Shown here one piece after another: positions 16,501 to 62,378 of a stretch of 64,000 bases of DNA. Under the pieces are notes generated by a model, which worked only from the letters and a program-made list of their open reading frames with translations, searched no databases and was not told the origin of the DNA. The stretch is from Cordylochernes scorpioides (lineage: Eukaryota > Arthropoda > Arachnida > Pseudoscorpiones > Chernetidae), in contig CP092882.1 in the NCBI GenBank assembly GCA_030710605.1, forward strand, positions 744,001 to 808,000. The letters are read 5' to 3'. The translations under genes and the position numbers were made by a program. The first letter of the stretch is position 1; every line of letters begins with the position of its first letter.

Positions 16501-19500
16501 AAGAAACCCTTGATTCCATTAGATATAAAAGATTCTTCTCAGTAAGATATGTAGCGATTTAATAAATTGAAAGAAGACAAGTTTATTTAATCATTTAACG
16601 ACGCAAGCTTTCAACTATGAACGTTCATAGTATCGTATTTATGCTTTAGCTTGCCTGTTGAAGGGTTTTTGCTCGAAAGCTTGTGTCGTTGAATGATTAA
16701 AGAAACTTGTCTTCTTTCGCATTGATTCCATATTGATAGTGTTAAAAGATATATATAACTAGCGGACTCTCTCAGGTCGGTGACAAAGCCACAACATCAG
16801 CTTTGGTAAACTGAGAAGTGTCCACCTAGAGACCATGGATTTGGAATAATGGCCCTCGTCAGTCTAGGACGGACTGTATTACATGAGATCCACACGGGAA
16901 CTAATGGAATCTTCACAATCTACCAAAGAGGTGTTCATCTGTCTAAGTGGATAGGCCAAATCTATGGCTAAAATATAGATGGAAATTATATATATTGTTG
17001 CATCATGGCTAATGAACCTATTTTAATTTAATTTGTAATATTAATTTTCATTTATATTAAATTTAAATTTATATTTTATATTTATTTATTTTTTTAAACA
17101 GAATGTTTATGTATTATAAACAGAATATATATATTATAGAATCATCATTTGTATTTAAGTACACTATGTGACTTCACTGCTCTCTTTGATGTGAGAAATA
17201 AATAAAGGATTCTGGAGGCTACTCAAAGTAGAGTTATCTCCACTTATATAAATTTGTAGGATGGTTGAAACACGCTCTGGTAAGATATAAGACCCAGCAC
17301 AGGAGAGGATCAAGGTTGAAGAGTCTGCCAAGCCGCAACCTGGTGAAACAATATTGTGAGATAGAAAATTAGGAAAGACAAAACTTCAGGATGACACGGC
17401 AATGTATTTAAGGCACAAACTAAAATAAATAAAATACAAGAGAATCAATGAGAGAAGTTAACACAGAGTAATAAAATTTATATTAATCTTAAGTTTATAT
17501 GAAAGAGCGTACCTGGATCTGTGAAGGAAAAAAAAAACATTTTTTTTCAGCAATTCATCAAGCAATTTACGCCTTTTGACTTGTGTCGCGGTCTTACGCA
17601 ATTCTGGTCTTAACTACCCGCTTCATGATTTTTCAGGATGCCTGAAAGGACCAGTTTTTTGGTCGTTGAGGTACAGCTTGCACCACGCTGATGAGGGCCA
17701 ACAGCCCTAAACGCTACCGTGGTTAGCTTTTCTTGATTAATCAAGAATGGGTATTTGGCCAATTCTGGAATAATTAAAAAATCAACGAGAATAATTATTA
17801 TTTATTCCGATAGATGGCGCAAGCCATCAGCAACTTTCAATTGCATGATAAGGAGATGCCTTTTTCATAATATATTAATCTGTTAAATACAATAATAAAA
17901 ACTTTGCTACAATATATATATAATGGACATTCTGGAAAATTTGTTCTCAAATCTACTTTCTCACAGAACTTATTGTGTTTTCCAGTTCGCTGGATGTGTC
18001 AAACAAGCTGAAGGCAAAGTGGTAAGTTCTCTTTTTTTAATAATTTCATCTATATATACCAAAAAAGCTACTTCTCCTTTCAAAAATACATTAAAACAAT
18101 GCATATTTCTTATCGTCTCAGTACAGAACGTAAAGGTTGTGATAAAGTATAAGCTACAACACCAGCTTTGGTAAATTCAGCCAAAAGGCAACCTGTTTAA
18201 CTTATTCCTTATTACCCTCATTCGGAAATCCTCTGCTATACATATAGACTCATAGACAAAACTTATGGAAGTGGAAAGTCTTTGATGTCGCCGGTCGTCT
18301 ATTTTTTTTTTAAGGTGACAGAGGCAATTTTGTTCACACTTGGTTATCTTCTGTGTCTTCAATAAAGGTCACTGTAATATCTTCCGGAGTAATTGTCTGA
18401 ATCCCGATATACATGGTAAAAGGTACAACTTCCTATAGTTTTGTCCATGAGTGTATCTTTCAGAGTTATTGTCTGAATCCCGATATACATGCTAAAAGGT
18501 ACAACTTCCTTAAGTTTTGTCCATGAGTGTACCTTTCAGAGGTATTGTCTGAATCCCGATATACATGCTAAAAGGTACAACTTCCTTAATTTTTGTCCAT
18601 GAGTTTATCTTTCAGAGTTATTGTCTGAATCCCGATATACATGGTAAAAGGTATAACTTCCTTAAGTTTTGTCCATGAGTGTATCTTTCAGAGTTATTGT
18701 CTGAATCCCGATATACATTATAAAAGGTACAACTTCCTTAAGTTTTGTCCATGAGTGTATCTTTCAGAGTTATTGTCCGAATCCCGATATACATGGTAAA
18801 AGGTACAACTTCCTTAAGTTTTGTCCATGAGTGTATCTTCCAGAGTTATTGTCTGAATCCCGATATACATGCTGAAAGGTAAAACTTCCTTAAGTTTTGT
18901 CCATGAGTGTATAAAGCCGACATGGATGAGATACAATAAATTAATAAATTTATTAATAAATAATTTGTGTGTGTGTTTTTTTTACAGGGATCTGTTGACC
19001 CAGCAATCAAGGAACGTATTAAGGTAAGATAAATGATGTCCTAGAATCCTCCTGTATTGATAGTGTCAAATGATGATCTAGAGACAAAAAGACAAATTTT
19101 TATTGATACTCAATCAACAGTTACATTGAAGAAAAATAATGAAAAATATGAGATGTTCATTAGAATAAACCCTTGAATCAATATAAAGATGAAAATATCA
19201 GATTTCCATGGATAAGTTTATATAATAAAAGGGACGTACCCTTGGATCTGTACCATGTACCAATATTTTGAAGAACGCCAAACTTTATCAAGGTGCGAAA
19301 GTAAAATTAATTGAAGAAAGTGAAGGAAATACGGGATGTATCGATAATACCTGATTTATTTAATCTTAAGTAGAACTGCTCTTCACTGAAGGTTAATAAC
19401 GAGTTTACAAGGTGGGAAGAGGAGCTTCTTTTTATTAGCATGCACACAAGCTTTCGGACATATCGTCCTTCATCAGGTAAGAGTAATAAACGCGCTGAGG

Positions 19501-23955: not shown

Positions 23956-24220
23956 TTAAATCCAAGTATTCTGATCAGAAATCCACTCAGGAACCGCTAG
24001 GTTCTAGTGTGTATTCTAGTCAGCTAGACAGTCCGGGTAGTTGATGTTCTGTGCTTCTGTAACACATGTTATCTATGATGAAAAAGGCATCTCCTTATTG
24101 TGCAACTGAAAGTTGCTGATGGCTTGCGCCTTCTATCGGAATAAATAACAACTATTCTCGTTGATTTTTAATTATTCTAGAATTGGCCAAATACCCATTC
24201 TTGATTAATTGAGAAAAGCT

Positions 24221-24266
24221 AACTACGGACGCGTTTCGGGCTGTTGGCCCTCATAAGCGTGGTACA
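24221..24266 (-). ncRNA. Hammerhead-like motif, ACGCGT family (one base off)
   Basis: Minus strand: CCACG, CTTATGAG, GGGC CAACA GCCC, GAAAC, GC, GTC, CGTAG. Box II, stem II, the GTC cleavage triplet and stem III ACGCGT are all intact. The only core change is G to T in box I, with one stem I mismatch. It complements the copy at 17681-17724, which keeps box I. Confidence 0.65.
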
Positions 24267-24799
24267 AGCTGTATCTCAACGACCAAAAAACTGGTCATTC
24301 AGGCATCCTGAAAAATCATGAAACGGGTCCTCTACCTACCTATTGTTCCAAGTTCAACACGGGAAAATGTTCTGTTCTTGTTGAGAGATATCCAGTTTCA
24401 TAATGTCAATATTTTCCATCGAATTGTTACAAAGTTACACCCTAGAAGCAGATGTCCTCCCAGACCTTTCGGTCCATAAGCTGGCTGTTCCCAAGTTGGA
24501 GTACAACATGAGAGTTTGTAACGTTTATAAAAAGATTTTAAAAAACTTTCTCAATACTATAGCGGATGTATGTAAGTTTTTCTTTTATAGCTATTTTTAA
24601 TGTAAAGGAAATAAATAATCAAGAATGTATGTCTCGTTAGTTTTTATTTTTTAACCAACGTCTGATTTTTACAAAGTCGTCATGTAAACAATGCTAAGTG
24701 ATGATGATTATTGGAATAAAGTTCTATGAAAAATTAAATATGAGAATAATAATTTTGAGATGTTTACAGCACGTATCAATACGTTTCATTATTATACAG

Positions 24800-32107: not shown

Positions 32108-35081
32108 GTAAGTACAATTTTGGTTTATTCTGTTATAATCTGGATAGTATTGGAATCTTATAGAAGTGTTTTGTGGTGAGTACAAATTTGGTTCTTTTTC
32201 TTCTGTCTATATCGTTGTTTCCTTTGCCTCACTGCTTTGTTCTTATGCATACCTCTGGTGAATCCTGTATAGGGTCAGTGACCCTAAATAAAGGCTTTTT
32301 GTTGTTGTTGTTGAGTACAAATTTGGAATGGTAGAGTCTTTCTGTTGTAACCTGAAGAATATTGAAATCTTATAGAAGTTCTATGTGGTATGTACAGCTT
32401 TGGTTTATTCTTCTTCTTTAAATAAAAGATACTTCGGCCAGTAAATCTTATTATCTCGACGTTTCGACAAAAATCTTTTGTCCTCGTCAAAACCAAAATA
32501 TCAGGTGAAAACGCCCTTGCATCCTTAGAATAATATTTAGCGCTTTGCCAAATGTTTTAATTTTTGTTCGCTCCTTACGAGGACAATAGAATTTTGTCGA
32601 AACGTCGAGACAATAAAAAAGATTTACTGGCCGAAGTGTCTTTAATTTGAATAACTATGAATGCCGGCTAGGCAGCCTCTTTCTTTACGATTTGATTTAC
32701 TCTGTTATAACATGGATAGTGTAATCGCGTTAACTACCTAGATCAAATGCTATGAGCTACGGTATAGCGATGATCCACTTAAATGAGTTCTGTAAACTTG
32801 AATAAGGGAACTCTACGTAATTGAACAAGGAACTTCTGATTTAATGGTTCTAGAATAATTTTACAGAAAAAAAAGCTACATGAATTAATTTGATTAGCCT
32901 AACATGACTTGATGGCTCGATTTAACTAGACTAGCGAGTAAATTAGACAAAACATAAAATATAAACAACACACTGTTGCCGAATCAATACAAAAAAAACA
33001 AACAAACAAATTAATCAATGAAAATATATACAGATTAAAATAAAACAATAAAGAATTAATTATGTAAAACAATGAATTATATAAATTAACAATAAAGAAT
33101 ATAATAACATCAATGAATAATATTCAACAACAATTTCTACAATAATTAACAATTAATAACAAATAAGAATAAAACATACATTTCTAACCAAACAGATAGT
33201 ATTGAAAGCTTATAGAAGTGGTTTGTGGTAAGTACAACTTTGGAATGTTAGGTCTTTCTGTTATACCCCTTGTATAATAGCATATACATACAAGATGCAA
33301 GTATCTTATAGACATTTTCCCTGGATAAATATTTTCTATCAAATGAGATAATGCACTTTGGTTTTAACTCTGTAAAATATTGGAATAAGATGAGTATGGG
33401 CTCGGCTCATCAATAATTTGTTTTACAGATATTGAAGATGGCGAAAGTCGGATGAGAATTTGCTACGATATGGTCCCTAAAGTAGTAAGTATTATAGTTA
33501 CCTGTATTTTTATATCATAAATCATTTATGTTTTGGTTATAGATATTTGTATCATAATTTCATGGACATTTTTATACTTTATCCCTCTATATCCAACATA
33601 GTTTTTGCTTATAGATGGAAATTTTGCCGTGAGAATATTGATCTATAAAGATAAAGGTTACCTCTTTCGTCAAAATAGACGTCAAACCTAAACGCCATCT
33701 ATTGATCGTCACTACAAACTATCGGCCTCGGGTCGGTAACAAAGCTACAACACCATATTTGACAAACTGAAGCCGCTAGTTTGCGAAAACGGTTAATAGA
33801 TGGCGTCTAGCTTTGACGTCTATTTTGACGGGAGAGGGGACCTTTATCTTTAAAGATAGTATTCTTATGTTGGATATTAAAATGGTATATCTCCTCCTTT
33901 AGCTAGCGTAGCACATTCTATTGGTGACTGTTGGCCAGGGATAACTTCTTAGAATGTTCATAGCTAGCTATATCTGATGGCTGCTCCCATATCATGGGAA
34001 CATGCCTGGATGGACTCAGTTCTCAGGGAGAAAACTGTAATAAGACAGAGCATTTTTCTTAAAAATTCTTTGAGTTAAAGTATTTGTCATATATAAACAC
34101 AGTAGAACTACCTCCCTGTAAAGGACAACACCTAATTGCAGAGCCAAAGTGTCCTCTTACCGGAGAGTTGCTAAATAGTAATAATGGTAATTTTGCAAAT
34201 GAAAACTGTCCTTTGTAGAGAGGTGACCGCTAGCGGGGTGTCCACTAAAGGGAGGTTATACTGTTTATATATATATGGCAAATAATTTAATATTATATAT
34301 ATATTAAAAAACGAAAGTAAAAATAAAAGATAAAAAGATCAGGTGTTGAAATCAATATTAAAAATGGCATATCCTGACCAGGAGTACATGTGCTTTACAG
34401 AAGGCAGAGCGCCATCTGGTGGAACAGAAATCAACTAAACATTGATTTAGCCTGTTCCCTGATATTTGGCCAACCCAATTTCTTGATAAATCAAGAAAAG
34501 TCATCCACGAACGCGTTTCGCGCTTTTGGCGCTCGTCAGCGTGGAGTAGACTGAACCACTGCGACCAAAAAATATTTTTTGGTCCCAGTGGCTTCCTGAA
34601 AATCCAAGAAATAGGTATTTAAGGCCAAACTTGCGTAAATACGCTTTCTGTTTCACCAGATGGCGCTCTGCCTTCTGTAAAGCACATGTGCTCCTGGTCA
34701 AGATATGCCAATTTCAATATTATATATATATATATATACAAGTATATATAACAGAAAGTTAAAGATATGAATTATAAAAAAAATTAAATGCTTATATTTG
34801 GAAACCTTATGTATTTACCCCCTTTAATATTTTTCTAATTTTCTATAAATAGAATGTATATCAAGAAGACTGTGTTACAGTATTTGACATACATTTTGTG
34901 TTCAATTTATCCTTCCATCCCCATAGGTTGTATTTATATAAAGACTTCCATTAGTTGACAATCTCTCCATTGACGTGTGTTTCAGCAAAGGAAGAGGTTC
35001 GAGCTCTGTTTCGACCGCACTGTCCCACCAGGAGATGACCTCTGGCAGTTCCTCTGTCGTGATTGTCAATCTGTCACCGCT
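32008..35081 (+). CDS. Gene B: secreted protein, exons 1-3 visible (partial)
   Basis: Joining 32008-32107, 33429-33484 and 34986-35081 gives 84 codons in frame with GT-AG introns. Residues 1-18 (MVTLRLVVLGVLIGAVCG) are a signal peptide; mature cysteines follow in QNCHK, VLCD, RICYD, ELCFD, FLCRDC. Exon 2 is 56 nt and exon 3 is 96 nt, exactly as in gene A, and junction phases agree. After exon 3 a good donor (GTAAGT) is present, but no acceptable exons 4-6 were found before the gap at 37013. They may lie in the gap, be too short to see, or be lost. A longer reading from 31888 would bury the signal peptide, so 32008 is preferred. Function is unknown. Confidence 0.75.
32420..32690. repeat. Inverted pair of AAACGTC hammerhead-like repeats in gene B intron 1
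   Basis: Left arm AAGATACTTCGGCCAGTAAA, TCTCGACGTTTCGACAAAAA; right arm complementary (32570-32660). Minus-strand reading of the left arm: TGACGAGGACAAAAGA, TTTTTGTCGAAACGTCGAG. Confidence 0.65.
33429..33484 (+). CDS. Gene B exon 2
   Basis: 56 nt between TTTTACAG and GTAAGT; encodes D-IEDGESRMRICYDMVPKV. Confidence 0.8.
33640..33860. mobile_element. Retrozyme-like repeat, terminal pieces in inverted orientation
   Basis: Left: TTTCGTCAAAATAGACGTCA, ACGCCATCTATTGATCG. Right: GCTAGTTTGCGAAAACGG, TAGATGGCGTCTAGCTTTGA, CGTCTATTTTGACGGGAG. The hammerhead region itself is missing. Confidence 0.55.
34098..34272. mobile_element. MITE, CAGTAGAACTACCTCCCT ends
   Basis: Imperfect terminal inverted repeats CAGTAGAACTACCTCCCTGT and AAAGGGAGGTTATACTG, about 175 bp, with an internal inverted pair AGGACA...TGTCC. 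Lies in intron 2 of gene B. Confidence 0.65.
34355..34720 (-). mobile_element. Hammerhead-bearing element with inverted ends
   Basis: Ends TGGCATATCCTGACCAGGAG, CACATGTGCTTTACAGAAGG, CAGAGCGCCATCTGGTGGAA and the complement at 34655-34715. Central segment CAATTTCTTGATAAATCAAG, then the ribozyme. A hammerhead-less relative lies at 47335-47580. Intron 2 of gene B. Confidence 0.75.
34505..34544 (-). ncRNA. Intact type I hammerhead ribozyme
   Basis: Read from 34544 down: stem I CCACG, box I CTGACGA, stem II GCGC, loop CAAAA, GCGC, box II GAAA, then CGCGTT, stem I CGTGG. Every core base fits the hammerhead consensus. Stem III is the tiny palindrome ACGCGT, and cleavage is predicted after the GTT triplet (34510/34509). 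Such minimal stem III ribozymes are known from Penelope-like elements and retrozymes and often act as dimers. Confidence 0.85.
34986..35081 (+). CDS. Gene B exon 3
   Basis: 96 nt between GTTTCAG and GTAAGT; encodes QRKRFELCFDRTVPPGDD and then LWQFLCRDCQSVTA. The LCRDC matches LCSDC of gene A exon 3. Confidence 0.85.
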
Positions 35082-48500: not shown

Positions 48501-50985
48501 CAGTAAGGACAGTAGATGTTTGTTTTATATGTAAAATAAACATTCGTGCTTTGATGATATAATTTCTTATATAAACATGGTGTGTTATTGATTTATAATT
48601 AATATTTGTTCAACTGTGATTTATTCTTATTATTTGCGGAAGAGTATTGCTCGATGCAAATATTATATGTAATTCTACTGTCCTAAAACCTTTTATCCAT
48701 GGTTTGCTTAAAACCCATTTCTGATATTCCATTCATCAGTGCTGCGTATATAAAAAGAAACGTCCAATACAGTATTAGAACTCTAAAAAGCGGTCTGGTA
48801 GATTAAATTGGTGAAACTGTTGGGAGAGTTCACCACTGATGAGCCAAGTTCTCCCAATATTTTCCATCGCAGTAAGGACAGTAGAAGTTTGTTTAATGTG
48901 TAAAAGAAACATTCATGCTTAATGCTTTCATTTCTTATTTATAGATGGTGCGGTGTGTAATGTCTTATAATTAAAGTTCATTTTAAAAATGAATATAAAC
49001 AAAGAAATAAATAACCAGTAGGGAAATAGTTCTTGAAACATTAAACACTTTGGGATTTTTTTTTCAGACAAAATAAAACCTTGTCTGGCTGAAGTGTCTC
49101 ATATTTCAGGAACAAGTAATGCCTTTATCTTCAAAACAATGATAAAATATGTTGACTTTTCTTAGAATATTTAATGAAACTGATTCCAATAATTATTAAT
49201 TAAACATTATATTTATTGATTGACAAGAGAGAGAACAAAATATAAAAGGGAAACTAATATTAAACAAAGGAACTTTTTTCTGTTTCGGTTAGCGCCTATT
49301 TACCTGTGAGCTTACACACACTCTGTGGTAACAATTAATTAATAAATATACAACAATATATCTACCAAAGAATTAAATTTTAAAAATGGTTTTAAATGCC
49401 ATTGTTTAAAATTTTCATGCTTTTTTTAAACGTCAGAAATAAGAGTATTTTTTTTTTAAAGGTTGAAGTACACTCATGGACAAAACTTGAGGAAATGAAA
49501 AGTCTTTGATGTCGCTGGTCGTCTGTTTTTTTTTTTTAAAGAGATAGTGACAATTTGGTTCACACTTTTTATTTCGTGTGTCTTCAATAAAGGTCACTTT
49601 AATATCTTTCAGAGTTATTGTCTGAATCCCGATATACATGTTAAAAGGTACAATTCCCTTAAGTTTTGTCCATGAGTGTATCTTTCAGAGTTATTGTCTG
49701 AATCCCGATATACAATGCTAAAAGGTACAACTTCCTTAAGTTTTGTCCATGAGTTATCTTTCAGAGTTATTATCTGAATCCCGATATACATGCTAAAAGG
49801 TACAACTTCCTTAAGTTTTGTCAATGAATGTAAATCATATTTAGTTTAATTATAAAGCCAATATGCAAAATGGGATTTAACATAAAGGTTGGTAACTTAC
49901 GTCAGAACGTAGCCCCTCGTACATATTCTGGAATATCGGGGTGTCACACTTGTTTCCTGCAACAGCCATTTCCAACTGGAGATCAACAAAGAAGTAAGTT
50001 GAAGAAGAGACAAACCTCGAAAGTTCCGATTATAATATGATATAAAAAAGAGAAGAAATAAATAGATGCACTAGCGCGCCATCTGTTATCAAATTACAAA
50101 ACAATTTTATAGGCGTAATTTTCTTTTTAAAATAAAATAATTTCTACTGTCCTTACTGCAATGGTAGATTAAACTGGCGAAACCGCTGGGAGGGTTCACC
50201 ACTGATGAGCCAGGCCCTCCCTTTAGTTTTTCCATTGCAGTAAGGACAGTAGAATTTTTTTTTATTTAAAAAAGAAAATTACGCCTCTAAAATAGTTTTG
50301 TAATTAAATAAATAGATGTCTTTTTAAATTTATGAATGTTCATTTGCACAATCAGGAGACGCCTTGAAGAACGGCGTGTTTAGTACATTCCAACATCACG
50401 GTCTGGATATAGTACTCAATCCTGGACAGTGTTGTTATGTCCATCTTCCTCTCCCTACAGGCAGAAGTTCCAGAGAAAATAGGAATGTTTGTAATAGTAT
50501 TTAGAAGAGGCGACCTTTGTCTCTTTAGATCAATATCCTCCCGTCAAAATTTCCATCTATATTTTAGCCATAGATTTGGCCCAGCCACATTGCCAGCTAA
50601 ACACCTCTTTGGCAGATTGTCAAGATTCCATTAGATCCCGTGTGGATCTCATGGAATAAAGTCCGTCCTAGACTGACGAGGGCCATTAGCCCGAAACCAT
50701 GGTCTTTAGGTTGACGCTTTTCAGTTTGCCAAAGCTGGTGTTGTGGCTTTGTCACCGACCCGAGACCGCTAGTTTGCGGCGACGGTCAATAGATGGCGTC
50801 TAGTTTTGACGTCTATTTTGACGGGAGAGGCGACCTTTGTCTCTTTAGTATTTAGTACGTTACAACTTACCACACACGGCCTGGGTATAGTACTCGATCC
50901 TGGACAGTGCAGCCATACCCATCTTCTTGTCCCCACGGGCCAGAAGCCCCAGGGACAGGACCAATACCACCTGCAGACGAGACAT
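37760..50985 (-). CDS. Gene C: secreted protein, exons 1-5 visible (3' end not found)
   Basis: On the minus strand 50985-50871, 49956-49901, 47223-47137, 46218-46180 and 37822-37760 join to 120 codons in frame, all introns GT-AG, first junction phase 1, the others phase 0. The protein opens with MSRLQVVLVLSLGLLARG, a probable signal peptide. Mature cysteines lie in AVCG, KCDT, KSCLD, YICGE and FYKCIE. Exon 2 is 56 nt as in genes A and B, and exon 4 begins FYKC like FAGC in A. Exon 5 (IKDAELTEQERATFKELKEA) is acidic and helical and its donor GTAAGT is good, so at least one more exon should follow; none was found above the 37013-37112 gap. Intron 4 (8.4 kb) contains the LTR element and the pogo/Tigger-type element. 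Function is unknown. Confidence 0.75.
38280..39362. repeat. Paralogue of 16990-17355, interrupted by a DNA transposon
   Basis: 38280-38396 and 39121-39362 are contiguous in the 17-kb copy. It ends with the same AAGCCGCAACCTGGT word. Confidence 0.85.
38399..39119. mobile_element. Pogo/Tigger-type non-autonomous transposon, 721 bp
   Basis: Terminal inverted repeats CAGTGGTACCTCGACATACG and its complement at 39100-39119, TA target duplication at 38397-38398 and 39120-39121. Subterminal ACTCGTATCTCGAA repeats on both sides. The CAGTGG-type end and TA duplication fit the pogo/Tigger group. The interior (38700-38970) has a short frame resembling no transposase. Confidence 0.85.
39443..39490 (+). 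ncRNA. Hammerhead-like motif (decayed)
   Basis: GTA, CTGATGA, GAGCCAAAACCC, TAAAC, TACCGGGTAC. Box I is intact; box II has lost its G. It belongs to the 26.7-kb repeat type (39363-39490). Confidence 0.45.
39499..39558. repeat. (TA)n microsatellite
   Basis: About 30 TA repeats; integration site of the adjoining LTR element. Confidence 0.95.
39559..40433. repeat. LTR, left copy (875 bp)
   Basis: TATAAAT at 39943-39949 is followed by GACAGTTCAGACAGTTCAGT, a plausible plus-strand promoter and start. AATAAA occurs at about 39705. Differs from the right copy by a 3-bp (ATC) length change near 40400; no other difference was noticed by eye. Confidence 0.9.
40434..44173. other. LTR element interior, no recognisable retroviral domains
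   Basis: Strongly G-poor on the plus strand. An ATG at 40448 opens a short frame that runs into a perfect donor-like AAGAGGTAAGA at about 40475. A 162-codon frame (40464-40952), basic and glutamine-rich, matches no family I know. 43565-43735 and 43737-43905 are an imperfect tandem duplication of about 172 bp (AACATTGCC, GGAAGAC, TATCCTCGCTTTGCACCTGG). Confidence 0.7.
44174..45051. repeat. LTR, right copy (878 bp)
   Basis: Same sequence as 39559-40433 apart from CATCATCACAG versus CATCACAG. Such similarity points to a recent insertion. Confidence 0.9.
45065..45215. mobile_element. Fold-back element, arms only
   Basis: GAAACTATTATAGACGCGTA, AACAATTTCTACTGCCCTTA and complement; the hammerhead-like core has been lost at the centre. 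Confidence 0.8.
45216..45600 (+). mobile_element. LINE 3'-end-like repeat
   Basis: Ends ATGATTGAGTGGAGATAAGA, then TAGAAGAAGAAG; longest copy of the family listed at 20040. Confidence 0.5.
45650..45775. repeat. Fold-back with AAAGCCTCCAGGGA ends
   Basis: AAAGCCTCCAGGGAAAA ... CTCCCTGGAGGCTTTATTG. Contains a hammerhead-like motif on the minus strand (45690-45725: GTAAAAGGGCTTACTTGCCC, GAAAGCTCG). Confidence 0.6.
45940..46100 (-). mobile_element. Fold-back element, core plus one arm
   Basis: ATTAAACTGGCGAAACCGCT, GGGAGGGTTCACCACTGATG, AGCCAGGCCCTCCC, then CATTGCAGTAAGGGCAGTAG. Confidence 0.7.
46180..46218 (-). CDS. Gene C exon 4
   Basis: 39 nt between GTTTTCAG and GTAAGT; encodes FYKCIEKAVVEFM. 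Confidence 0.78.
46322..46440. repeat. Palindrome, GTTACCGAAACGTC motif
   Basis: AATAGTGTGTGACGTTTTGG, TAACAGCGTTGTTACC, GAAACGTCTCACACTATT. Resembles the AAACGTC hammerhead-like family, with GAAACGTC at the same place. Confidence 0.6.
46560..47130. other. Intron 3 of gene C
   Basis: AT-rich. No coding signal outside exon 3. Confidence 0.5.
47137..47223 (-). CDS. Gene C exon 3
   Basis: 87 nt (29 codons) between CCCTAG and GTGAGT; encodes AATVVKSCLDHEMAWEEFFQ and then YICGENFWT. Nine nt shorter than exon 3 of genes A and B. Confidence 0.8.
48175..48545. mobile_element. Fold-back element, full copy
   Basis: Both arms present (CACGAATATTTATTTTATAC ... AAAATAAACATTCGTGCTTT), each with the GGGAGGG...CTGATGAG core and the CCAATACAGTATTAGAAC, AAAAAGCGGTCTGGTA inner word, inverted about 48370. 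Confidence 0.8.
48750..48935 (-). mobile_element. Fold-back element, half copy
   Basis: CCAATACAGTATTAGAACTC to AAGAAACATTCATGCTT, with core TTGGTGAAACTGTTGGGAGA, GTTCACCACTGATGAGCCAA. Confidence 0.7.
49469..49832 (+). mobile_element. Tc1-type MITE with 3-copy 76-bp array
   Basis: Left end ACACTCATGGACAAAACTTG, then three right-end units (each TCTTTCAGAGTTATTGTCTG, ..., TTTTGTCCATGAGT). Intron 2 of gene C. Confidence 0.85.
49901..49956 (-). CDS. Gene C exon 2
   Basis: 56 nt between GTTGCAG and GTAAGT; with the phase-1 G encodes GNKCDTPIFQNMYEGLRSD. Confidence 0.8.
50075..50315 (-). mobile_element. Fold-back element, well-preserved copy
   Basis: Arms AGGCGTAATTTTC, AATTTCTACTGTCCTTACTG and complement. 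Core on plus: CTGGC-GAAACC, GGGAGGGTTCACCA, CTGATGA-GCCAG, CCCTCCC. Intron 1 of gene C. Confidence 0.8.
50381..50475 (-). pseudogene. Decayed duplicate of gene C exon 1
   Basis: Minus strand: CTTCTGCCTGTAGGGAGAGG, AAGATGGACATAAC, ACACTGTCCAGGATTGAGTA, CTATATCCAGACCGTG. It parallels 50871-50960 (ACTGTCCAGGATCGAGTACT, ATACCCAGGCCGTG). The donor GTGTGGTAAGT has become GTGATGTTGGAATG, so it cannot splice; the signal-peptide start is missing. Confidence 0.75.
50505..50850 (+). mobile_element. Hammerhead-bearing retrozyme-like element
   Basis: About 345 bp between two direct copies of GAGGCGACCTTTGTCTCTTTAG (split: GAGGCGACCTTTG, TCTCTTTAG; 50506-50530 and 50828-50850). It holds an intact hammerhead at 50667-50710, has no open reading frame of note and has many decayed relatives in the window. 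It sits between the exon 1 duplicate and the true exon 1 of gene C, in intron 1. Short, non-coding, ribozyme-carrying, with direct terminal words: this fits a retrozyme; that name is inference. Confidence 0.65.
50667..50710 (+). ncRNA. Intact type I hammerhead ribozyme
   Basis: In order: stem I CCTAGA (50667-50672), box I CTGACGA (50673-50679), stem II GGGC, loop CATTA, GCCC (to 50692), box II GAAA (50693-50696), stem III ACC/GGT with a two-base loop, GTC cleavage triplet (50702-50704), stem I TTTAGG (50705-50710). Stem I pairs at all six positions (one G.T). Cleavage is predicted between 50704 and 50705. Confidence 0.88.
50871..50985 (-). CDS. Gene C exon 1 (signal peptide)
   Basis: ATG at 50985-50983 (GGGGATGTC context); 115 nt ending GTGTGTG before GTAAGT, phase 1. 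Encodes MSRLQVVLVLSLGLLARG, then DKKMGMAALSRIEYYTQAVC. Confidence 0.82.
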
Positions 50986-51197: not shown

Positions 51198-52330
51198 TAC
51201 ACTCTATAACAAAAAGAAAAATTGACGCACTAAGAAGGAGTTATTCAATTTGGAAAAAAATTGGTGTATGCGGAGTACATGTAATGGGGAAACCCCTTTA
51301 AAATTTCATAACAATCAATTGTTTTATTCCAGAGTTTGATCGTCACAAATTTAGAATGTCAATATGTCGTTGGATCCCCACTGGCCTGGATGCAGGCTGC
51401 CACCCGGCGTGTCATGGACTGATAAAGATTCCGGATGGTGTGCTGCGGGATTTCTTGCCAAATTGTCTCCAACTTTCGGGCTAAATAGTCAACATTCCGG
51501 GATGGTTGCAATCGCCTTCCCATCACGTCCCAGATGTGCTCTATGGGCGAGAGATCAGGCGACCTTGCTGGCCACGGAAGAGCTCGGCAAGATTGAAGAC
51601 AATCCATAATAACACGTACCGTGTGTGGCCGGGTATTATCTTGTTGAAAAGTAAGCCCGGGGTGATGTGAGAGGAACGGTAACAAAACAGGCCGTAGAAT
51701 GTCATCTACGTACCGTTGTGCTGTCAGGATGACAGGAATGACTACCAATGGGGTCCTGATATTAAATTAAATGTCACCCCAGACCATAACGCCCTGTTGT
51801 GGATCTGTGTAATGTTCGAAAGTAAGGACAGGATCCACACGCTGCCCAGGACGTCTCCAGACACGTTTGTGACGGTCGTCAGGACACAGTACGAAATGGG
51901 ACTCATCACTAAAGACTATACGTTCCAGTAAGTGTAGTTCCAATTTGATCGCTCCCAACACCACCGTAGTCGGACTTGTCGGTGCACGGGTGTGAGGGGT
52001 AGGCATCGTAACGGTCGGAGCAAGTTCTTCTTTCTAAATTTTGTTTAAATTAGATAAATATTTTACTGAAACATTAACATAGCCAAAATAGTAGCGTATT
52101 GAGAACAAACAATTTCAAAACACCGAGCAGACTTCTGGTGTAATAGATTTAAAGATAGCTGTCAGAGAGGATCGAGGATGATCCAAGTTCAGGACGTCCT
52201 TCAATTTGGACGACGGAGCACAACATCCAGCAGGTTCGTGATTTAACCTCTATGCTGATAGAAAAATAACTATTGAAACTATAGCGATTATTGTTGGAAT
52301 TTCATATGGTGGCTGCCAAAGCATTGTCCA
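51198..52330 (-). mobile_element. Tc1-like transposon, degraded
   Basis: Right terminus (minus-strand end) ACACTCTATAACAAAAAGAA lies at about 51199. The other end is lost in the gap. Contains the transposase pseudogene below and a degenerate helix-turn-helix-like remnant at about 52140-52260. Confidence 0.7.
51359..52006 (-). pseudogene. Tc1-like DDE transposase pseudogene
   Basis: Minus-strand fragments RIVFSDESHFVLCPDD and VWRRPGQRVDPV (to 51767), then, after a frameshift and stop, LLPFLSHHPGLTFQQDN, LPWPARSPDLSPIEHIWD and a normal C terminus ending GDPTTY. The catalytic residues are all visible: D in FSDES, D in QQDN, and E in PIEH, with 32 residues between the last two. The N-terminal DNA-binding part is not in frame. 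Closest in wording to arthropod Tc1-like elements. Confidence 0.85.
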
Positions 52331-57460: not shown

Positions 57461-57840
57461 CTTATAGAAAGCTATAGTCACTTATAAATCAACAAAGAAA
57501 ATATTTAGCGCTAATTAATAGTTAAAGAATTAGAGGAAGCTTTCGAGTAATCCCTTCTACAGCTAGCTGAAAACGTATAAACAAGGTAATAAAGATAGAT
57601 GAAAAAGGACTTGTCCGAAAGCTTCCTTCAATCAAATAAATAATTATATATTAAATTTTTGTTAATTAAGAAAAAAAGGGCATTTTCTGATCGTACACTG
57701 AAAGTTGCTGATGGCTTGCGCCATCTATCGGAATAAATATCAACTAATCGTTGATTTTTAATTATTCCAGAATTGGCCAGATACCGTTTCTTGATTTATC
57801 TACCTGATCCAAGTACAAATTTAGAATACAATATAATACA
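57461..57840. other. Spacer between duplicates, left part
   Basis: More CGAAAGCTT-type motifs (57535-57570 minus, 57600-57630 plus) and a truncated GATGGCGCAAGCCATC element (57675-57800). No gene. Confidence 0.5.
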
Positions 57841-61379: not shown

Positions 61380-62153
61380 CTATCATCATTGAATCATGAC
61401 TTTCCAGAATTGATATTTCGCTTTTCATCTCTTCTAATCCTTGTTTGGAATTTTTATCCATTTGTTTTCTTCTGATTTTTATTATTTCTATTAATTGTCC
61501 ACCAATATGTTCTTTGTTGATGTTTTTATTGATGATTGTTTACAATATTCCTTTTGATATATCTCCATAGGTCCGTGAATTACTGATTTTAATCTGGATG
61601 ATGAGGCTTACATTTCATATATCTTAGCTACTGTAGCATTCTCACAATCTGCTGAACTTGCTAAGTCATCTTCTATTGATAATTTTGCTTTATTTTCTAT
61701 TTTTGTATGTTTTAATGTATTGATGTATGTTTACAACATTATTTGTGGTATCTCTCCATAGGTCCGTGGATCACTGATTTATGATTGGATGATGAGGCTT
61801 CCTCCTTAAATTTCTTAGATACTGAAGCGTTCTCACAATCTGCCGAACTTGCTAAGTCATCTTTTGTTAATGAATTTGCTTTATTTTCTATTTTTTGTAT
61901 GTTTTGATGTATTGATGTATGTTTACAACATTCTTTGTGGTATTTCTTCATAGGTCCGTCGATTACTGATTTATATTTGGATGATGAGGCTTCCTCCTTA
62001 AATTTCTTAGCTAGTGAAACGTTCACACAATCTGCCGAACTTGCTAAGTCATCTTCTGTTGATGATTTTGCTTTATTTTCTATTTTATCAGGCAATAGGT
62101 CATCTATGCTATCTACAGAATTAGATGAGACATTTTCTAGGCCTTGTCTTTAA
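61380..62153 (-). pseudogene. Repeat protein, right duplicate
   Basis: Minus strand, open from about 62150 for about 137 codons to 61739, then broken. Reads GLENVSSNSVDSIDDLLPDK followed by at least two full 63-residue repeats: KIENKAKSSTEDDLASSADC, KKFKEEASSS, GPMKKYHKECCKH. Two further degraded repeats and the SEISILESHDS end follow. DNA period about 190 bp. Highly charged, serine-rich, with a conserved cysteine in DLASSADC and a cysteine pair in KECCK. No ATG is found before the first repeat because of a stop at the 62.15-kb boundary, so the 5' end is missing or spliced. The family is unknown. Confidence 0.55.
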
Positions 62154-62154
62154 T

Positions 62155-62378
62155 TAAGAAAAGGGCTTCTCCTTATCGTGCAACTGAAAGTTGCTAATGG
62201 CTTGCGCCATCTATCGGAATAAATATCAACTATTCTCGTTGATTTCTAATTATTCCAGAATTGGGCAAATACGCATTCTTGATTAAACAAGAAAAGGAGA
62301 AAAGGATAGGGAGAAGCCCTTTTCTTAATTTATGCACCTTATCCCAGTACAATATTACATTTGTACTATTTTTTCACA
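62155..62378. mobile_element. 224-bp insertion with 12-bp target duplication
   Basis: CTTGTCTTTAAT occurs at 62143-62154 and 62379-62390. The left duplicate has a single CTTGTCTTTAT at 56080-56090. The insert is a GATGGCGCAAGCCATC-family element with inverted AAGAAAAGGGCTTCTCC / AAGCCCTTTTCTTAA words. Confidence 0.88.

Follow-up and report, generated by a model that had tools for sequence, protein, structure and literature searches.

A high-copy hammerhead retrozyme of the pseudoscorpion Cordylochernes scorpioides probably inserted by Penelope-like elements

The stretch of the genome of the pseudoscorpion Cordylochernes scorpioides analyzed here has 64 kb (contig CP092882.1, positions 744,001 to 808,000) and is referred to below as the window, in whose numbering all coordinates are given. 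At 50506-50848 of the forward strand the window carries a 343-bp insertion that consists of one copy of a 320-bp retrozyme unit (family B) plus an overlap of 23 nt, that is, 1.07 units; positions in the unit are counted from u1 = 50506. Within this copy, at 50667-50710 (+), lies the 44-nt core of a type I hammerhead ribozyme. As the initial annotation had proposed, the insertion appears from the reading frames to be antisense to a predicted gene and just inside its intron 1; the signal-peptide-like exon 1 of this gene (about 50871-50985, -) is followed by GTAAGT. From the analysis of this copy and of its relatives we conclude, with good confidence, that the 320-bp family is a high-copy non-coding retrozyme that was inserted by Penelope-like elements (PLEs).

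The hammerhead motif, defined by its sequence and by a structural search, includes the core segments CTGACGA (50673-50679, +), GAAA (50693-50696, +) and GTC (50702-50704, +), with a predicted cut after 50704 (50704/50705). Stem II, GGGC/GCCC (50680-50683/50689-50692), is paired at 4 of 4 positions, and stem I, CCTAGA/TTTAGG (50667-50672/50705-50710), at 6 of 6 including one G.U; these bases and both helices are present as first described. The structural search for type I sites, with thresholds of at least 4 pairs for stem I, 3 for stem II and 3 for stem III, gave two sites in the window, 50667-50710 as the best and 34510-34539 (-), and none in 60 randomized windows with the same first-order base statistics. 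The motif at 50667-50710 is real, and with its CUGANGA...GAAA...UH core, stems I to III and an open stem I it has the build of a type I hammerhead.

It is not a textbook hammerhead, as had been claimed, given that its stem III would not hold in cis. The three pairs formerly counted for this stem exist on paper, but the arrangement ACC-AT-GGT would leave a loop of 2 nt, and the feasible maximum in cis is 2 bp closed by a CAUG tetraloop. The best fold of the 44-nt monomer (-11.6 kcal/mol) is not a hammerhead, and the cis hammerhead reaches -6.7 kcal/mol with a 2-bp stem III and -8.0 kcal/mol without it. Between two copies, the palindromic stem III ACCATGGT (50696-50703, +), which has no workable cis loop, forms an 8-bp helix, and the best fold of two copies (-30.4 kcal/mol) is exactly a double hammerhead with intermolecular stems I and III. 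Because the palindrome closes well only between two copies and the minimum free energy fold of the dimer is the double hammerhead, cleavage is expected to occur in pairs, and the predicted active form is a dimer. The 8-mer is intact in 30 of 35 non-anchor copies. Dimeric hammerheads of PLEs were reportedly treated by Lunse in 2017. The present family differs from the dimeric hammerheads of PLEs and of axolotl and newt repeats in its palindrome, the 8-nt ACCATGGT, and in its stem I, most commonly CCTAGA/TCTAGG in the sampled copies; it resembles both in the short palindromic helix III and in the predicted action in pairs, which has been published for the axolotl repeats (available text of PMC7229834).

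The motif is not a singular feature of this locus. The genome searched comprises 2.62 Gb in 24 contigs, and the exact 32-nt core of the family occurs in it 8,774 times (4,362 + 4,412), with 0 + 0 matches for the reversed control; a loose hammerhead pattern matches 29,509 + 30,477 times genome-wide versus 11,133 + 9,696 times for its reversed control. The first 300 bp of 3 of the contigs contain no TTAGG/TTAGGG, and one protein search aimed at the host gave no match. Further pieces of the repeat are also present in the window. For the anatomy of the copies we sampled 96 loci from one contig, all selected by their ribozyme: 20 of them cover 23 of the approximately 35 family-B-like places among the first 100 or so loose-pattern matches listed, and 76 lie around remaining exact cores, from the first 100 listed of the 8,774. 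Pieces of less than 30 nt were excluded, as well as clusters whose best piece was less than 80% identical and clusters that touched an edge of the extracted sequence; 96 clusters were kept from the 96 loci, not one from each. The ends of the pieces were set by BLAST and have an uncertainty of several bases. Conservation and pairing were counted on one exact-core piece per locus, in copies that are not independent.

In the window copy the overlap of the unit appears as a 23-bp direct repeat (50506-50528 and 50826-50848, +). This repeat was considered as a target duplication and rejected, since it marks the overlap in a copy that exceeds one unit, and other copies have it as well. The likely target duplication is the 10-bp sequence TAGTATTTAG, found on both flanks at 50495-50504 (+) and 50846-50855 (+), the first 3 nt of the latter coinciding with the end of the element. 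In the circularized unit, ATTTTGACGGGAG (50815-50827, +) and CTCCCGTCAAAAT (50538-50550, +) are the two arms of a hairpin that we refer to as the reverse transcription (RT)-start hairpin. The 3' end of the window copy (u23) is placed at the short RT start site of this hairpin; in other copies the long, or tail, end lies about 12 nt past the second arm, mostly at u55-59 (50560-50564). The unit has a GC content of 47.5% and, when circularized, a longest stop-free stretch of 68 aa, in agreement with the short non-coding repeat described in the initial annotation. There is no open reading frame (ORF) for a reverse transcriptase or a GIY-YIG domain in the 320-bp unit; it is therefore not an autonomous PLE. 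The same annotation had set the motif apart from a PLE ORF context, which is correct for the ORF, but the copies of the repeat carry the insertion signature of PLEs. A second copy in the window, at 33610-33857, is arranged head-to-head, with a tail end at u56 and a short end at u25.

With respect to the orientation of the pieces, 65 of the 96 clusters are simple head-to-head pairs (-+), 25 are single, three are --+, two are -- and one is -+-+, and no simple tail-to-tail pair (+-) was found among the 96. Their 3' ends (171) fall mainly in two groups, 80 in u8-34 (class S) and 73 in u48-66 (class T), with 18 elsewhere, and the outer ends of the pairs correspond to two sites approximately 33 nt apart within one hairpin. 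The true position of S is placed around u22-25, because most ends aligned to u14 come from copies of a sequence variant that extend slightly further, by a few bases, and ends at u31 run into AT repeats. When the 65 simple pairs are sorted by end class, 30 are TS, 25 ST, one TT and none SS, with 9 others; that is, 55 of the 56 classifiable pairs have one S and one T end (p 8e-16 if S and T are equally likely). Among the first 100 exact cores listed there are 9 opposite-strand neighbors within 1 kb, each arranged as (-,+); these neighbors belong to the sampled loci and provide no independent test.

Pieces longer than one unit are frequent (46 of 172), the longest with 849 nt, or 2.65 units, and no long arrays were seen in the sample. 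The 5' ends are scattered, with an excess at u281-320 (42 of 172) and at u151-170 (22 of 172), possibly because RT stops ahead of the RT-start hairpin and of the ribozyme, respectively. At the cut site of the ribozyme there is no excess of 5' ends (3 of 172 in u195-205; 7 of 171 in u190-209, where 10.7 are expected), and ends made by ribozyme cleavage were rejected as cDNA ends for this reason. We also rejected that rod-like pairing fixes the head-to-head junctions, since the sum of the two 5' positions, judged by eye, is not constant.

The insertions lie in AT-rich DNA, with 77% AT in the 20 bp beside them versus 65% further out (95 loci). Given that AT-rich flanks inflate duplication matches, a control with re-paired flanks was included: direct matches of 9 nt or more between the two flanks were seen in 45% of the 96 clusters and in 9% of the re-paired flanks, and a number of them are non-repetitive 11-14-mers. 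At the head-to-head junctions, BLAST overlaps of at least 3 nt were found in 30% of 69 pairs, versus 5% in a simulation, an excess that is overstated because the BLAST overlaps tolerate mismatches and the simulation used exact matches. The two halves of an insertion share variants: in 63 pairs and 24 variable columns (second state at least 20%) they agree at 770 of 867 comparisons, whereas the agreement between insertions at these columns averages 49% and reaches at most 59% in 300 re-pairings. Successive turns within one piece (turn 1 versus turn 2) agree at 424 of 484 comparisons, and over all columns identity is 92.6% within insertions and 88.0% between them; the shared-variant test leaves out clusters in which any piece is below 80% identity, as well as pairs that share fewer than 3 variable columns. 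A single circle explains the shared variants, as do RNAs from one and the same source locus; gene conversion between the two halves could contribute as well.

A similar anatomy has been described for PLEs. The purified anole PLE enzyme cleaves AT-rich DNA on both strands, extends both of them and initiates the cDNA at two adjacent internal sites, whose spacing corresponds to the genomic tail (PMC11167929); bdelloid PLEs show head-to-head inverted pseudo-long terminal repeats (pLTRs), a 31-bp tail on one of them, and a 9-10-bp target-site duplication (PMC3846280). According to the available parts of these two papers, the 320-bp family shares with PLEs the head-to-head inverted repeats, a tail of 30-40 nt, two RT start sites, AT-rich targets, duplications of about 10 bp, and the type I hammerhead motif. 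In the 320-bp family we find ends at two adjacent putative RT start sites (approximately u22-25 and u55-59), with an optional tail within the 30-40 bp known from PLEs, head-to-head inverted repeats, and AT-rich targets with duplications within the range of roughly 8-14 bp expected for PLE-type insertion. The differences are that the family has no ORF and a unit of only 320 nt. In addition, the ORF of the anole PLE begins at stem II of its ribozyme, whereas the core of the 320-bp family is CTGACGA and hence contains no ATG (PMC11167929, in part).

PLEs are present in the genome and could supply the enzyme in trans: GIY-YIG frames are abundant, with 146 matches among the 150 scored of 17,015 candidates. 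The PLE locus L127 has ORFs with RVT_1 and GIY-YIG and a 2.4-kb head-to-head inverted pair whose 3' ends differ by a 32-nt tail, flanked by the 10-bp target-site duplication GATTCAGGTA. At this one locus a hairpin with the arms CTGGCCG/CGGCCAG holds the short end in its loop, whereas the long end lies past its second arm, as in the 320-bp family. The loci L125 and L126 are PLE-like, L126 with a 2.5-kb inverted pair that is 98% identical; they were not used as a PLE standard, their GIY-YIG domain being near the start of the open frame. Sequence kinship of the 320-bp family with 23 GIY-YIG loci (L105-L127) was considered and rejected, the only match being one of 24 nt in the ribozyme.

A second hammerhead family, with the core CTGATGAGGGCCAACAGCCCGAAACGCGTC (loci L128-L131), has a comparable layout; in L131 the copies are head-to-head, with a short and a long end and inverted-repeat sequence around the short end, and the tail differs in being about 48 nt long. 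Outside the ribozyme the two families share ATAGATGGCG, and other similarity is significant only with soft scoring. An ORF adjoining this second family was rejected, the longest stop-free stretches being 127 aa (L001) and 114 aa (L007). The other type I site of the window, 34510-34539 (-), with the core CTGACGAGCGCCAAAAGCGCGAAACGCG and stem I CCACG/CGTGG, is related to this family, pieces of which occur at 17592-17871, 24074-24328, 57664-57783, 62152-62271 and other places of the window.

The 320-bp family is at the same time a retrozyme: a short non-coding repeat (within 150-450 bp) with a type I hammerhead and a GC content below 50%. An element of this kind is already known in animals. According to the available text of PMC7229834, metazoan non-LTR retrozymes also have type I hammerheads, a non-coding unit of about 170-400 nt with GC below 50%, copies of more than one unit, longer target duplications, and thousands of copies. 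The main text of that paper, as available, does not contain the terms "inverted" or "head-to-head"; in our sample, by contrast, simple head-to-head pairs make up 65 of 96 clusters, and their outer ends prefer two sites. With respect to the upkeep of the ribozyme, the stem I pair u165-u202 is A-T in 106 of 117 copies and G-C, with both sides changed, in 5 of 117. Conservation is 0.964 in the core columns, 0.970 in loop II and 0.911 outside the ribozyme, the lower outside average coming mainly from u1-u100. This conservation is weak evidence of upkeep because the neighboring bins are about as conserved.

The following pathway would account for these observations. Transcripts of at least two units may, as the folding suggests, cut themselves by hammerheads that act in pairs, and the unit-length RNA would be joined into a circle, as published for other animal retrozymes. 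A PLE protein with reverse transcriptase and GIY-YIG domains would then cut both strands of an AT-rich target, and both DNA ends would serve as primers for cDNA synthesis within a single hairpin of the same RNA species, with starts at S (about u22-25) and, some 33 nt away, at T (about u57), in line with the observed end positions and shared variants. As the copies show, the cDNAs run for up to 2.65 units without a preferred end at the ribozyme cut, their far ends are joined head-to-head, about a third of them with short homologies, and many insertions keep target duplications of 9-14 bp.

Several observations weigh against this interpretation. The sample, as described, comes from one contig and was selected by the ribozyme. 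The window copy itself is a single-orientation insertion, not head-to-head, as are 25 of the 96 sampled clusters; 9 of the 65 pairs have an end outside the S and T classes, and in 55% of the clusters the flanks show no match that reaches 9 nt. Among the loci examined we found no PLE whose RT-start hairpin is related in sequence; the link is anatomical. On the downstream side of the ribozyme the two hammerhead families do not align significantly under strict scoring (p 0.13; 0.001 with softer scoring). Regarding the ribozyme, all core bases are kept in 24 of the 35 non-anchor copies, and all stem I and II pairs as well in 14 of the 35. Its two bins (0.948 and 0.957) are matched by the neighbors u121-160 (0.943-0.945) and u221-260 (0.944-0.956), and our confidence was slightly lowered because the ribozyme region is no better kept than these. 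The best fold of 50660-50720 is not the hammerhead, and as a single strand this 61-nt segment is no more stable than shuffled versions of it (z -0.45; 61 of the 200 shuffles did as well).

The covariance-model search, set beforehand as the test that could refute the motif, also went against it: a scan of the window at the Rfam gathering score returned two tRNAs and no hammerhead, and a scan of 50600-50780 at E<=10 two unrelated weak matches and no hammerhead. This test says little on small hammerheads of such type, because the Rfam hammerhead models likewise fail to detect all 8 of the other loci of the 320-bp family that were scanned and under-score the second family, for which Hammerhead_HH9 gives a match of 27.1 bits, below its gathering score of 52, at 2 of 2 loci. 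We thus regard the Rfam threshold as a weak criterion here.

The alternative that survives best, although we consider it unlikely, shares the PLE insertion step with our interpretation and is not fully exclusive of it: the copies would be deletion derivatives or solo pLTRs of one PLE family, moved as PLE RNA, with the ribozyme as baggage and no circle. The anatomy of the ends, which is that of PLEs, agrees with this idea, and so do the like layout of the second family in L131 and a ribozyme region no better kept than the rest of its neighborhood; moreover, ribozyme mutants of the anole PLE still insert in vitro, with unprocessed RNA as the main template (PMC11167929, in part). Against it, the unit is self-contained, its longest stop-free stretch being those 68 aa, and 46 of 172 pieces exceed one turn of 320 nt; in addition, 5 of 117 copies have the double change that keeps the stem I pair. 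No PLE with such a pLTR was found among the 23 GIY-YIG loci compared, a small part of the 17,015 candidates.

Insertion by a long interspersed nuclear element (LINE) instead of a PLE, through L1-like twin priming, is improbable. Among the features found here, LINEs also produce short homologies at junctions, inversions at the 5' end, and target duplications in the range of about 10-14 bp. In twin priming, one end lies at the 3' end of the RNA and the other at any internal site; in the 320-bp family the outer ends occupy the two sites spaced by about 33 nt, with one end on each in 55 of 56 pairs, and the flanks of the S class, the only ones considered for this point, are AT-rich and have no shared poly(A) or simple-repeat tail. 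A DNA transposon or miniature inverted-repeat transposable element with 13-bp terminal inverted repeats and a chance hammerhead is largely refuted and very improbable: the perfect 13-bp inverted repeat (50538-50550/50815-50827) and the flanking direct repeats of the window copy suggest it, but in other copies the former is an internal hairpin and the latter is the unit overlap, and the two alternative 3' ends, variable 5' ends, and inverted pairs or multi-turn pieces do not fit. That the motif is a lone ribozyme selected to regulate the host gene is hardly credible in spite of its position just inside the predicted intron 1, since it is antisense to the gene, is one of 8,774 exact core copies, and belongs to a whole 343-bp copy with insertion marks.

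Concerning the surroundings, no evidence of a host function was found for the window copy. A 66-bp duplication, 80% identical, flanks the insertion (50397-50462 and 50875-50940), so that exon 1 of the host gene is present a second time in decayed form; beside this gene, 51359-51766 (-) reads in frame as a Tc1/mariner-like transposase fragment, without a family search. At 50058-50265 there is an inverted-repeat element with long arms and a loop containing CTGGCGAAAC...CTGATGAGCCAG, that is, both strands of a hammerhead core, but permuted in order, with stem II of 5 bp and no stem I; there are similar translated stretches near 48.4 and 48.9 kb. A different type of hammerhead-like core (CTGATGAAGGACGATATGTCCGAAAGCTT, CTGATGAAGGCCATTAAGTCCGAAAGCT) is found at 19476 (-), 19937 (+), 57412 (-) and 63945 (-), the first two head-to-head and about 460 bp apart, as in the terminal repeats of PLEs.

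Animal retrozymes are known as highly transcribed circular RNAs in several phyla, and the enzyme that inserts them had been an open question. PLEs were named a strong candidate partner because they co-occur with retrozymes and have ribozymes and tandem copies in common with them (PMC7229834). According to a review, retrozyme repeats lack any conserved motif from which the autonomous partner could be recognized (PMC7761336). Evidence on the insertion anatomy of retrozymes was not found in the accessible text of PMC7229834, PMC7761336, PMC11722881 and PMC8490949, nor among titles and the openings of abstracts, although some of it could be present in Cervera 2014 and Lunse 2017. Thus, as far as the literature searched goes, what is new is the insertion anatomy that ties a retrozyme to Penelope-type reverse transcription. 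A more specific version, which we put forward tentatively and hold to be somewhat less probable than not, is that one ribozyme-made circle templates both cDNAs: the subunits of a PLE dimer would start at S and T of one hairpin, and each would extend one target strand, both copying the same circle, sometimes for more than one round. If true, it would explain why S and T alternate almost strictly, why the two halves share variants and why ends at the cut are lacking, and ribozyme circularization and PLE insertion would be two halves of one transposition pathway. A high-copy retrozyme family with the two start sites and the head-to-head signature of PLEs makes the partner testable in other genomes and in vitro.

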